This document shows positions 35,340 through 39,858 of a DNA stretch of 39,858 bases, piece after piece (the first letter of the stretch is position 1; each line of letters opens with the position of its first letter). This DNA is from Rhodohalobacter halophilus (GTDB lineage Bacteria > Bacteroidota > Rhodothermia > Balneolales > Balneolaceae), in the NCBI RefSeq assembly GCF_001715195.1, contig NZ_MDWE01000014.1, forward strand, positions 1-39,858, in the 5' to 3' direction. The notes under the pieces are model-generated. The model had not been told where the DNA came from. It saw nothing but the letters and a program-made list of their open reading frames with translations, and did no database searches. A program made the position numbers and the translations under genes.

Positions 35340-36587
35340 ATGAAAGAGTTTTTTGCAAATTTCTTTGACAAGTATGGTCTGTCTTTTATTATGGTCGCCA
35401 GCTACTTTGGCTCCGGTTCAATATTCATTGCCAGCCAGGCAGGCGTTGAATATGGATACGTTCTGATCTGGGCCGTGATTGGTGCTGTGTTGCTTGGTTT
35501 TATGGCACAGGACATGAGCGCTCGTCTTGGTATTTTTGGCGACACCCTGATGACCTTTATCCGAAAGAAACTTGGAAAAAACGGGGCACTTACGATTGCA
35601 CTATTCTTATCGATCGGGTGTATTGCCTGGACACTTGCACTAACCGCGGCAGTTGGGAAAAGTGTTGAAATTTTATCAGCCGGTGCACTACCCTGGCAGC
35701 CTCTCGCTGTAGTCACCGGGGCCTTGGCCATCTTGGTTGGTATTTTGAATTACAACTATGTAGAGAAGGTGATGACCGGAATGATGTTCCTTCTTTTGAT
35801 TCTATACATTGTTGTAGCAGGTGCCAGTGGCCCGGATATGATGGAAGTAGCCAAAGGATTTGTTCCTGCCATTCCGGATGTGGGGGCAATGCTTTTAGGA
35901 GCAGCTATTCTGGGAACTACAGCTCTCTGGCCTAACTTTTTTCTGGAATCCATTCTGGTAAAACGTAAAGGATGGAACAGTTTTAAGCATGTAAAAATGA
36001 TGCGTACGGACTTGGCAATGGGATACACCGTAGGCGGTTTGATTACACTGGCGATTATCATTGTAGCGGCTGCTGTACTGAGGCCTGCCGGGTACACTGA
36101 ACTCTCCTCATTTGTGGCACCGGGCGAAGCACTCGAAATTGTTCTGGGCCAATGGGCGATGATCGTATTTCTGATCGGTGTAATTGCCGCCGCTTTTAAT
36201 AGTATTGTACCGATTATGTGGACGGTTCCTTTTATGATTCTGGAAGCCCTCGATATTGATCATAAAGATGGAAGCAGTAAAGCATTCAAGATGATTTTTG
36301 CCGGTGGTATTTTGATCGGTATGTTTTCTCCGTTGGTATCGCACATCACCGGATTGAGTGTCGTTGAGATGGTAACCCTCTTCCCGGCATATAACGGTGT
36401 ATTTGGTTTACCGATTACTGCAGCACTTCTGTTCTGGGCAGTGAACGATAAGAAGCTGATGGGTGCAGAAACCAACAACTGGAAGCTAAATATTGCCAAC
36501 AGTGCTTTGGTGATCTTCTCTCTCTATATTGCAATTAACTCCGGAAAAGGTGTGCTCCAAGCCATCTTTGGCGGAATGCTCGCATAA
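35340..36587 (+). CDS. Non-canonical NRAMP-family transporter
   Basis: This 415-residue membrane protein has about 11 helices and follows the NRAMP (SLC11) layout: the YFGSGSIFIASQAGVEYGY segment in TM1, the GFMAQDMSARLGIFG segment after it, and the LGTTALWPNFFLES segment in TM6. In manganese and iron NRAMP proteins, TM1 carries DPGN and TM6 carries MPH, which bind the metal. Here the aligned positions are GSGS (residues 24-27) and LWP, so the Asp, Asn and Met ligands are all missing. The substrate is therefore unlikely to be bound in the usual way; magnesium, another ion or an organic solute are possible. A TSUP permease gene follows after 10 bases. Confidence 0.78.
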   Translation: MKEFFANFFDKYGLSFIMVASYFGSGSIFIASQAGVEYGYVLIWAVIGAVLLGFMAQDMSARLGIFGDTLMTFIRKKLGKNGALTIALFLSIGCIAWTLALTAAVGKSVEILSAGALPWQPLAVVTGALAILVGILNYNYVEKVMTGMMFLLLILYIVVAGASGPDMMEVAKGFVPAIPDVGAMLLGAAILGTTALWPNFFLESILVKRKGWNSFKHVKMMRTDLAMGYTVGGLITLAIIIVAAAVLRPAGYTELSSFVAPGEALEIVLGQWAMIVFLIGVIAAAFNSIVPIMWTVPFMILEALDIDHKDGSSKAFKMIFAGGILIGMFSPLVSHITGLSVVEMVTLFPAYNGVFGLPITAALLFWAVNDKKLMGAETNNWKLNIANSALVIFSLYIAINSGKGVLQAIFGGMLA

Positions 36588-37473: not shown

Positions 37474-37496
37474 TTAGTCGTTTCATATCAAACGCT

Positions 37497-37523
37497 CGTG
37501 GCACGACTTTGAGTCGTGCCACG
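37497..37523. repeat. Perfect 12-bp inverted repeat, REP-like
   Basis: CGTGGCACGACT (37497-37508) and AGTCGTGCCACG (37512-37523) are exact complements around a 3-base loop. It lies between the convergent ends of the TSUP gene and the minus-strand lipoprotein gene. No T-run follows on either strand, so it is more like a dispersed palindrome than an intrinsic terminator. Confidence 0.75.
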
Positions 37524-37540
37524 AATGTTTTGACTCTCCC

Positions 37541-38107
37541 TTAATCACAAGATACATTCGGGTTGAAAGGTGTAAATGTTCCGTTTGGGTTATCTTTATA
37601 GAGCCAAACGTGAAGGCTGTAGTGAGGATCCGGAACAGGTGTACCACCCACATCCAGCGTATAATCACCGAAGTGAGGATGTGGCTGGCCAACATCAATT
37701 ACAATGTACTCCACTGCAACCAGTTTTGAATTTCCATTCTTGTCTTTTTCATAAACCAGCACTTCCGGAGTTAGCGGATCAAAAACCGGATCAACCAACT
37801 CTTCATTCAACCAGTGGTAACCCATGCCGCCCATGTCAGGGTGCGCAACACAGTGAGTGTCTTCCATATATCCGCCCTTCACAGCCTGAGTTGTGGAATT
37901 GTAACGGGCAGTGGCTTTCTTTACATCCTGTAAAAGTGCTGACATGTCATTGTGGTGTGATTGAGTTGCAGTTGATTCACTTTTCTGTAAGACCGTCAGT
38001 GCATCACTCTCGAATTGATGATCCGTCAAGGCATTGTCACTGCAAGAAACTGCCAGAAGTGCCATACTTAGTAATCCTGTAAAAAGATAGGTGTTCATTT
38101 TTAACAT
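37541..38107 (-). CDS. Secreted lipoprotein, conserved unknown family
   Basis: The start at 38107 is set by GGAGGGGATC just upstream and gives MLKMNTYLFT, a hydrophobic core and AVSC with lipidated Cys22. A longer frame to 38155 is less likely. The 188-residue product has a helical segment near 45-75 and then a conserved block: YMEDTHCVAHPDMGGMGYHW, NEELVDPVFDPLTPEVLVYE and LVAVEYIV. I recall similar blocks in secreted proteins of unknown function from several soil and marine bacteria. The paired Cys and His residues (CVAHP, GYHW, QPHPHFGDY, DPHYSLHVW) could bind a metal or be structural. Function not known. Confidence 0.75.
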   Translation of the reverse strand: MLKMNTYLFTGLLSMALLAVSCSDNALTDHQFESDALTVLQKSESTATQSHHNDMSALLQDVKKATARYNSTTQAVKGGYMEDTHCVAHPDMGGMGYHWLNEELVDPVFDPLTPEVLVYEKDKNGNSKLVAVEYIVIDVGQPHPHFGDYTLDVGGTPVPDPHYSLHVWLYKDNPNGTFTPFNPNVSCD

Positions 38108-38290
38108 GATCCCCTCCATTGTTTGTTTTTGGTTTCGATTGAACGAATGCTTCAACCATTAGCTGTCTAATATGGAAAAAGGGAGGGGAGGGCTCCATAC
38201 ATTTATGGAGGATATGCATGTAAGAATGTCTCAATTAATGAGCGGCAAGAGTGGTAAGTATCCTTGGGTAATTATAATTGAAAAATTTAT

Positions 38291-38356: not shown

Positions 38357-39733
38357 TCATGAATACCCAATCCATACGGACACAACCAGGGCAATAGAGG
38401 AGAGGACAAGCAGCTTCAATATGAGCGGAGCAATGAATTTGAACCAGCGATCATAAGAGATGCCGGCCAGGCCAAGAATTCCCATCAATACCGGATTTGT
38501 GGGAACAATCATATTCATCAGGCCATCACCAAATTGGAAAGCTAAAACAGAAATCTGCCGGGAAACGCCAACCAGATCACCGATTGGTGCCATCAGAGGC
38601 ATGGTTACAAAGGCCTGACCGCTGCCGGATGGAATAAAGAAGTTCAGAATACTCTGGATGAAGAGCATGCCCACAGCCGAAAACTCAGCACCGACAGAAG
38701 CCAGCGGAGTTGCAAGAGCATTGACAACCGTGTGAAGCACTTCACCGTCTTCCAGCAGGAGTGCGATGGATCGTGCAAATCCGATCAAAAGGGCGGTTGC
38801 GGTTAGTTCGGAAGCTCCCTTCCCGAAGACCTTTGCCGTTTCATTCATACTCAACTTTGATATCAGCCCAACTACTACGGCAAGAGCAAAAAACATGGCG
38901 CCAAGCTCAACCAGGTACCAGGCATACTGATAAATCCCGAAGACGAGGAGGATCAAAGCTGCAGACGTAGCAATCAGTACACTTTTATGGCGTTTTGTCA
39001 TTTCAGGGTAGGTAGTTTGCTCTTTGGATGCCGGCGTTGCAACAGCCCCCACCATCAGACTTTTTGTTGGGTCCAAACGAATTTTACGAGCATAGCTCCA
39101 GACGTGATGGAATCCCACGGCCAGAAAAGGAAAAGCTAAAATAGCCCGGTACTCAATGCCTGAAGCAGGCTGAAGTTCGGCCACTTCCTGCGCCACTAAA
39201 AGCGTGAACGGATTCATTAAAGCAATTCCGTACCCGATTCCGTACCCAACCACCATTGTACCGATCGCAGTAATTGCATCCAGCCGAAGAGCTACGCAAA
39301 CCGATATGAGAATGACGGCAAATGGTATATACTCCTCAGCCATACCCAGTGTGGCAGAAGCTGCAGCAAATGCAAACATGGCAAAAAAGAGAAGTAAGAA
39401 GGGCCGGTCTCCAAAACGTTTGATTAATTTACCAAGCAATGCGTCGATGGCTCCGGTCTCCCGAACCACAGCCAGTGCTCCGCCAATGATCAAAACAAAA
39501 AAGATGATTCCCTGTGCATCGGCCAAGGCCCGCGGAACAACCGTGAATAGTGAAAGGGGTGAGAGTATCACCTTTTCGTCTACTTCAGTAAACGTTCCCG
39601 GCATTACAACTTCACGTCCTTGCTCCGTCATTTCGGTTTGAAATTCTCCAGAAGGGATGACCCAGGTCAACACCAGAGAAACAATCATCAAAAAGAAGAG
39701 AAGGACAAGAGTGTGCGGGACTTTAAATTTCAT
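38357..39733 (-). CDS. YfcC-type C4-dicarboxylate carrier family protein
   Basis: This 458-residue inner-membrane protein has about 11 to 12 helices and fits the YfcC/DcuC-related carrier family. It starts MKFKVPHTLVLLFFLM, has WVIPSGEFQTEM in the first loop, FVLIIGGALAVVRETGAIDALL in the next helix pair, AMFAFAAASATLGMAEEYIPF, and the late signature SGSGQAFVTMPLMAPIGDL followed by FQFGDGLMNMIVPTNPVLMGI. Substrate is unknown; family members are annotated as dicarboxylate or amino-acid/peptide transporters. The start ATG at 39733 was chosen; a TTG at 39757 would add eight residues. It stands apart from neighbours. Confidence 0.9.
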   Translation of the reverse strand: MKFKVPHTLVLLFFLMIVSLVLTWVIPSGEFQTEMTEQGREVVMPGTFTEVDEKVILSPLSLFTVVPRALADAQGIIFFVLIIGGALAVVRETGAIDALLGKLIKRFGDRPFLLLFFAMFAFAAASATLGMAEEYIPFAVILISVCVALRLDAITAIGTMVVGYGIGYGIALMNPFTLLVAQEVAELQPASGIEYRAILAFPFLAVGFHHVWSYARKIRLDPTKSLMVGAVATPASKEQTTYPEMTKRHKSVLIATSAALILLVFGIYQYAWYLVELGAMFFALAVVVGLISKLSMNETAKVFGKGASELTATALLIGFARSIALLLEDGEVLHTVVNALATPLASVGAEFSAVGMLFIQSILNFFIPSGSGQAFVTMPLMAPIGDLVGVSRQISVLAFQFGDGLMNMIVPTNPVLMGILGLAGISYDRWFKFIAPLILKLLVLSSIALVVSVWIGYS

Positions 39734-39858
39734 AAGCAGGTGCAAATAGTTGATCAAATTTCAAACCATTATACGAAAAGTAGGTTTGAGATGTGATGAA
39801 TTGGCGGCATAGAAGCGATTATTTGAACATCATGAATGGGCCGATTTTTTCTCGCAGA
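39734..39858. other. Right edge, no gene seen
   Basis: These 125 bases lie upstream of the minus-strand YfcC-type gene and reach the window edge. They should contain its promoter, but no clear boxes were found, and no partial gene enters from the right. Confidence 0.4.

Follow-up and report, generated by a model that had tools for sequence, protein, structure and literature searches.

The analysed window, a stretch of 39,858 nucleotides of Rhodohalobacter halophilus, contains an intact open reading frame with an ATG start that codes for a carrier related to the Nramp family (Table 1). Its stop codon is separated by 10 bases from the start codon of a second gene, the product of which belongs to the TauE/SafE family (PF01925; 115.6 bits, cut-off 32.6), so that an Nramp relative has a member of that family as its neighbour, a gene that the earlier note left unmentioned. 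A sequence search among solved structures retrieved no relative of this partner. The hairpin beyond the pair resembles a terminator on both strands and is a possible end of a two-gene transcript. Farther downstream, a 204-amino acid protein (37541-38155) displays, on our own reading, an apparent lipoprotein signal and had no Pfam match at E 0.1. A carrier of the DcuC family (PF03606; 307.8 bits) is encoded on the minus strand (38357-39757) and scored 338.8 bits with the NCBIfam model for YfcC, a putative basic amino acid antiporter, which is below the cut-off of 500.

Table 1. Positions, in the window, of the carrier gene, its partner gene and the codons of the residues discussed
Feature	Position	Strand	Basis
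Nramp-related (PF01566) carrier, GSGS/LWP type, 415 aa	35340..36587	+	ORF and Pfam match
Codons of G24-S25-G26-S27, TM1 break replacing DPGN	35409..35420	+	Alignments; G24 and G26 in 73/73 clade sequences
Codons of T193-T194-A195-L196-W197-P198-N199, TM6 break replacing ATxMPH	35916..35936	+	Alignments and clade conservation
Codon of E203, TM6b, place of the second canonical His	35946..35948	+	Alignment; 73/73 clade sequences
Codons of N287-S288, TM8	36198..36203	+	73/73 clade sequences
TauE/SafE-type transporter (PF01925), 276 aa	36598..37428	+	Pfam match and linkage survey
Hairpin with 13-14 pairs, located between convergent genes and resembling a terminator on either strand	37495..37525	.	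Consensus match only

The carrier was assigned to the Nramp family by a Pfam match (PF01566) over residues 32-380 (180.6 bits, E 5.8e-53, cut-off 29.8), and no added domain was found by Pfam search in its 415 residues. Indeed, the anchors by which the earlier note had aligned the protein with Nramp transporters turned out to be real, YGY being present at positions 38-40 and AQDMSARLG aligning with the canonical QxLSAxLG. The NCBIfam model NF037982, named 'Nramp family divalent metal transporter', was matched with 70.7 bits (cut-off 50), and the MntH model, the cut-off of which is 430, gave 98.6 bits, E. coli MntH itself scoring 622.6. A sequence search among solved structures returned EleNRMT as the best match (3.1e-17; 6.6e-28 by profile for PDB 7qia), followed by DraNramp (7e-16). 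Similarly, DraNramp and EleNRMT came out on top (TM-score of about 0.6), with ApcT, LAT2, and AdiC lower in the list, when Foldseek was run with an AlphaFold2 model of poor quality (mean pLDDT 51.8). Within the R. halophilus genome, which is 97.8% complete, the carrier gene was the only PF01566 gene found and a canonical MntH was not retrieved, so that manganese uptake must use another system, unless the assembly missed this gene.

Compared with the canonical Nramp/MntH proteins (DraNramp and E. coli MntH), the carrier shares the overall alignment and the anchor in TM2 but possesses neither DPGN nor MPH. First, the D-P-G-N of TM1 falls on G24-S25-G26-S27 without gaps in pairwise, multiple, and profile alignments, as the earlier note had stated. 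Second, the M-P-H of TM6 falls, again gap-free, on L196-W197-P198, and the second canonical His on E203. The replacement of AMPH by ALWP that had been read from the sequence therefore holds for Met, Pro, and His, whereas T193 is the counterpart of the Ala that serves as a ligand in the A-x-x-M motif, the whole A-x-x-M-P-H motif reading T-T-A-L-W-P in the carrier. Third, the ungapped alignment confirmed that the Asp, Asn, and Met ligands of the metal are gone, and a search for ligands at shifted positions, through the alignments and the charges of the core stretches, yielded no Asp, Asn, Met, or His to take their place. Indeed, Asp and His are absent from the presumed stretches of TM1, TM3, TM6, TM8, and TM10, in which E203 is the sole acidic residue in mid-helix, E37, E110, and E343 being located near the ends. 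The middle of TM3, which two alignments place differently, has no acidic residue in the carrier, while position 100 is occupied by Glu in 32, by Gly in 24, and by Ala in 17 of the 73 sequences of its clade.

The loss of these ligands is not the unusual trait that the earlier note took it for, as the absence of DPGN and MPH is a described state of Nramp-related proteins. In the text available of two papers by Cellier, an outgroup within PF01566 ('orphan') is reported without the features for manganese and proton transport (PMC9606685, PMC10606218). Similarly, paraphyletic Nramp-related proteins without DPGN, MPH, and the proton pathway are described in the accessible part of a 2026 preprint (PMC12873925), and the carrier agrees with that description in lacking DPGN and MPH. 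The legend of Figure 1 of this preprint names 'NRMT-like' and 'G-motif 3' groups and, except for EleNRMT and the hypothesized importer MntG, calls the Nramp-related groups entirely uncharacterized (PMC12873925). The 'G-motif' of this group name is, on our reading, G-x-G. Nramp-type loci from related genomes lack DPGN as well and have GPGT, GTGS, or GPGS instead, or GVSH and GSGE in the case of distant ones. Nramp-related proteins without DPGN and MPH are thus already known; new here are a tight clade, its linkage with TauE/SafE, and partly matching trees of the pair. What makes the present case valuable is the linked TauE gene together with the strict conservation of a non-metal site, rather than the absence of DPGN.

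The NRMTs, with which the carrier had been compared in the earlier note, do not provide the right comparison, because they retain the Asp of TM1 (DxxG in TM1 and TxxA/T in TM6, according to the text available of PMC8806188), whereas the GSGS clade does not. Both EleNRMT and the carrier, which reads GSGS and T193-T-A-L196, have Thr at the TM6 Ala position, but the Asp of EleNRMT (D-A-G-G) is Gly in the carrier, and the Met position of TM6 is occupied by Ala or Thr in NRMTs versus Leu in the carrier. Assignment of the carrier to the NRMTs was therefore rejected. By motif and profile, a GPGT group from related genomes appears to be the closer comparison, as profile comparison (hhalign) of the clade yielded a score of 278 (E 4.5e-39) for this group and of 145 (E 1.1e-19) for canonical MntH. 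Like the carrier, this group belongs to PF01566, has GxG for DPGN and no MPH, and shows GTT before the TM6 break. Its equation with the 'G-motif' proteins PxpT of Corynebacterium glutamicum and YcsG/MntG, the homologue of PxpT in Bacillus subtilis, is based on pxpA neighbours and not on a comparison with the PxpT sequence itself. Nevertheless, the groups differ in TM6 (VVPYN in the GPGT group versus ALWPN in the carrier), in TM3, and in their neighbours, namely oxoprolinase genes in the former case and TauE in the latter.

A 58-row tree with midpoint root, from which the DraNramp part and loci L007, L055, and L056 had been left out beforehand, bore out the distinct clade that the earlier note had suspected. 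Indeed, 23 GSGS-type rows grouped together (100/99), two haloarchaeal GAGS-type rows stood beside them (25 rows, 100/99), and the canonical rows (six, 100/100) as well as the NRMT-like rows (four, 100/98) were separate from the clade. The GPGT rows were found on the canonical and NRMT side under this root (24 rows, 95/91) and not beside the GSGS clade, indicating that the profile likeness to PxpT does not reflect close kinship; owing to long branches, the deep forks are uncertain.

Conservation was assessed in 73 distinct clade sequences, drawn from 130 loci selected with minimum values of 250 bits, 45% identity, and 300 residues. Invariant in all 73 were G24, G26, L101, A104, T194, A195, W197, N199, F200, E203, N287, S288, P291, and W294; S27, W97, S204, and P349 were present in 72, and S25, C94, T193, L196, and P198 in 70 sequences. 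This indicates that the lost metal ligands have been replaced by a conserved set of residues and that the site is not decaying, so that the option of a decayed gene was rejected. The clade was found, by searches with the carrier at E ≤ 1e-60, in 41 of 292 genomes of the Halobacteria (50 genes, of which one is in two pieces), in 18 of 244 genomes of the Rhodothermia, to which R. halophilus belongs, and in 7 of 394 genomes of the phylum of the window, as well as in 4 of 246 genomes of the haloarchaeal phylum, all four being among the 41 Halobacteria. A single scan of 84,980 species, the reach of which is limited to close relatives, gave 12 loci, two of them with BRINE in the record title. Among 72,556 plasmid records, seven matches with at least 50% identity were found, all of which were haloarchaeal, and the yield of three viral contig scans was a single, partial canonical locus. 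Annotation describes the relatives on plasmids as transporters of iron or divalent metals. Together with the NF037982 score, these annotations ascribe to the carrier a transport of metal for which its binding site offers no support.

In the Rhodothermia, TauE was located downstream of the carrier gene and on the same strand in 18 of 18 genomes, one TauE gene being cut by a contig end and one carrier gene being split over two contigs. Of the 50 haloarchaeal carrier genes, 30 had a same-strand TauE gene beside them (23 downstream and 7 upstream), one had TauE on the opposite strand only, and 19 had none within about 6 kb, or within less at contig ends. In terms of genomes, a linked pair was present in 29 and absent in 12 of the 41 haloarchaeal carrier genomes. 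A TauE homologue (E ≤ 1e-30), linked or not, occurred in 39 of these 41 genomes versus 19 of the 251 others (Fisher p 1.4e-31, a value that ignores shared ancestry). Moreover, TauE was found at none of 36 other Nramp-type loci, with flanks of at most 1.5 kb. In the open-licence literature searched, as far as its text was available, no paper linking an Nramp relative to TauE or dealing with the GSGS clade was found.

The history of the pair was followed in quick trees of 47 linked pairs with SH-aLRT support only, six loci, and pairs with a TauE identity of at most 42%, having been left out. Both trees contained a group of Balneolaceae and other members of the class (L168, L171, and L172), and both joined the bacterial pair L169 and L170 to a Halocatena plasmid (L103). 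The trees conflicted in that L142/L145/L148 and L151-L157 formed one carrier group but were split for TauE, and in that L136/L137 joined L123-L126 for TauE alone, for which partner exchange or poor resolution is a possible cause. Distances of carrier and TauE correlated with r 0.86 (47 pairs) and 0.82 (32 haloarchaeal pairs), the best permuted value being 0.17, although shared species history alone could explain much of this correlation, as the Mantel approach ignores ancestry. In the 58-row tree, the three Balneolaceae rows were nested among the haloarchaeal ones, the inner branches being weakly supported. The simplest, though not proven, explanation is that at least two transfers took place between domains, the direction of which is only suggested.

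Neighbouring genes were clustered for 71 loci, after leaving out five duplicate loci, and not all clusters were annotated. The commonest neighbour family, present at 46 of the 71 loci, is by its position TauE. Two clusters came next, with 13 and 9 loci; all of their members lie on the opposite strand, the distances being similar, and they probably represent antisense ORFs. No further neighbour family occurred at more than 6 of the 71 loci, and no enzyme was consistently linked. Creatininase homologues were encoded at six loci, adjoining the carrier gene in L043, L097, and L115 and farther away in L131, L151, and L153, and homologues of AMP-binding acyl-CoA synthetases at five (L171, L100, L120, L138, and L141). 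AdoMet synthetase and ThiI (L116) and SecY (L125) fell in groups of four loci each, and L103 contained a sodium:calcium antiporter gene. An attempt to deduce the substrate from the gene neighbourhood failed, as no common family was present beyond TauE.

A first explanation, to which we assign an even chance, is that the protein has the LeuT fold, carries a small anion or an organic acid, which would bind at the G-x-G break of TM1, and acts with the TauE-type exporter. It would be an Nramp-related secondary carrier that no longer binds transition metals, in which the breaks G24-x-G26-S27 and T193-T194-A195-L196-W197-P198-N199 would form an uncharged pocket, predicted to involve S25, S27, T193, W197, and N199. 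In amino-acid carriers of the APC type, a G-x-G break in TM1 lets backbone amides hold carboxylates. By analogy, the backbone amides at G-x-G of the present carrier would most likely hold the negative or polar end of an organic acid or another anion, and N287-S288 may sit, as we presume, where some LeuT-fold carriers hold Na+. The carrier and its TauE/SafE-type anion exporter would constitute a two-gene module, so far encountered in haloarchaea and the class of the window, and TauE would probably export the same compound, or a product or a counter-anion. The frequent presence of TauE beside the carrier gene in relatives, including haloarchaea, points to a substrate of the pair other than metal. 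Hence, the changed substrate proposed in the earlier note is supported as the likelier reading; the substrate class, the direction of transport, the coupling ion, and the division of labour between both proteins are what we infer. In favour of an anion or organic acid are the missing metal ligands, the strictly kept replacement residues, the profile similarity to the GPGT group with its pxpA neighbours, and the linkage with TauE. Evidence that speaks against an anion consists of the manganese reports for YcsG and MumT, the unlinked haloarchaeal genes, the neighbours that are ion carriers, the disagreement of the trees, and the poor structure model. Because the GPGT group does not stand beside the clade, the agreement between the pair trees is partial, and a heavy-metal ATPase recurs near the carrier, the anion reading was lowered to the chance stated above and that of a metal substrate was raised. 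A broader form of the anion proposal, lowered for the same reasons, is more tentative and, on balance, doubtful. It considers the pair a portable module of hypersaline life, in which an Nramp relative with its metal site rebuilt for an anion or organic acid and a TauE/SafE exporter would form an uptake-export pair, for exchange or overflow, that would have moved between haloarchaea and bacteria as one unit.

Alternatively, the protein may carry a divalent metal (Mn2+, or hydrated Mg2+) by means of backbone carbonyls, T193, W197, N199, and E203, which is unlikely yet has to be taken seriously. The protein belongs to the Nramp family by sequence and, according to the weak model, by fold, and EleNRMT, its best solved match, is a Mg2+/Mn2+ carrier (PMC8806188). 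Also, it is encoded by the sole PF01566 gene found in the genome, E203 is invariant, and a homologue of heavy-metal P-type ATPases is encoded 1.4-4.9 kb from the carrier gene at 4 of the 71 loci (L043, L097, L115, and L167). Furthermore, induction of ycsG raised the manganese content of the cells, and YcsG, 50% identical to PxpT, is reported as a manganese importer in the accessible part of PMC10448178. MumT, the identity of which to reported Nramps is below 25%, is likewise reported as a manganese importer that raises cell manganese (PMC5050338, available text). Nramp-related sequences in the alignment of another 2026 preprint are considered likely metal transporters in the portion available (PMC13060092). 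However, the evidence on YcsG comes, as far as that text goes, from induced expression (PMC10448178), and the breaks of TM1 and TM6 contain no acidic ligand in the carrier, whereas NRMTs keep their Asp. In addition, no metal regulator was annotated flanking the carrier gene or the pair in the seven plasmid neighbourhoods of the clade, the annotation of which is incomplete, whereas canonical MntH genes on two plasmids had an adjacent metal regulator annotated. A helix-turn-helix protein flanked the carrier gene or the pair in two of the seven. A clade with a strictly kept non-metal site and a linked partner offers a good system for shifts of the Nramp fold between organic and metal substrates.

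A further candidate substrate is 5-oxoproline or a similar cyclic amide or amino acid, the carrier then being a divergent counterpart of PxpT for osmolyte-like uptake in halophiles, which we judge improbable. The use of 5-oxoproline requires PxpT in C. glutamicum and its homologue YcsG in B. subtilis, both being Nramp-family proteins encoded with oxoprolinase genes, and metal transport could not be excluded by the authors, according to the part of the paper available (PMC13274462). Taken together with the reported manganese import, this implies that the substrates of members without DPGN may be organic acids, metals, or both. GPGT-group genes were located 30-106 bp from pxpA (PF03746) in five of the six relatives possessing pxpA among 58 genomes of the order (G030, L009; G031, L010; G032, L013; G034, L008; and G042, L020). 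GPGT itself was seen in four of these loci, the L020 locus not including TM1, and no Nramp match was obtained for the sixth genome (G049). The profile similarity to the GPGT group favours this substrate for the carrier, but pxpA was not found in the R. halophilus genome, no oxoprolinase gene was annotated in the seven, incompletely annotated plasmid neighbourhoods of the clade, no neighbour cluster besides TauE was common, the residues of TM3 and TM6 differ from those of the GPGT group, and the clade is separated from that group in the tree. On plasmid pHME505 of Haloferax mediterranei (L191:4998-9853), a gene for a GPGT-type Nramp relative is directly followed by the oxoprolinase genes hyuA and hyuB, which constitutes a haloarchaeal parallel to pxpTABC.

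Least probable of all is a non-transporting sensor or subunit that regulates or stabilizes the TauE-type transporter, since the pairing with TauE in both gene orders, which would suit such a role, is set against the strict conservation of both helix breaks and the TM8 residues, the lack of an added domain in the 415 residues, and the 19 of 50 haloarchaeal genes without TauE close by.

Outside the clade and the 36 control loci, a GAGS-type gene on a plasmid of Haladaptatus halobius (L104) has a TauE gene on the opposite strand 1.6 kb away. The same plasmid contains a short Nramp-type gene (166 amino acids) beside TauE (L104:6155-7431), located 2.3 kb from the intact GAGS-type paralogue and 33% identical to the R. 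halophilus carrier over 78 residues, which is perhaps a decayed copy. Finally, genes coding for universal stress proteins adjoin the GAGS-type genes, upstream in L104 and on both sides in L190.
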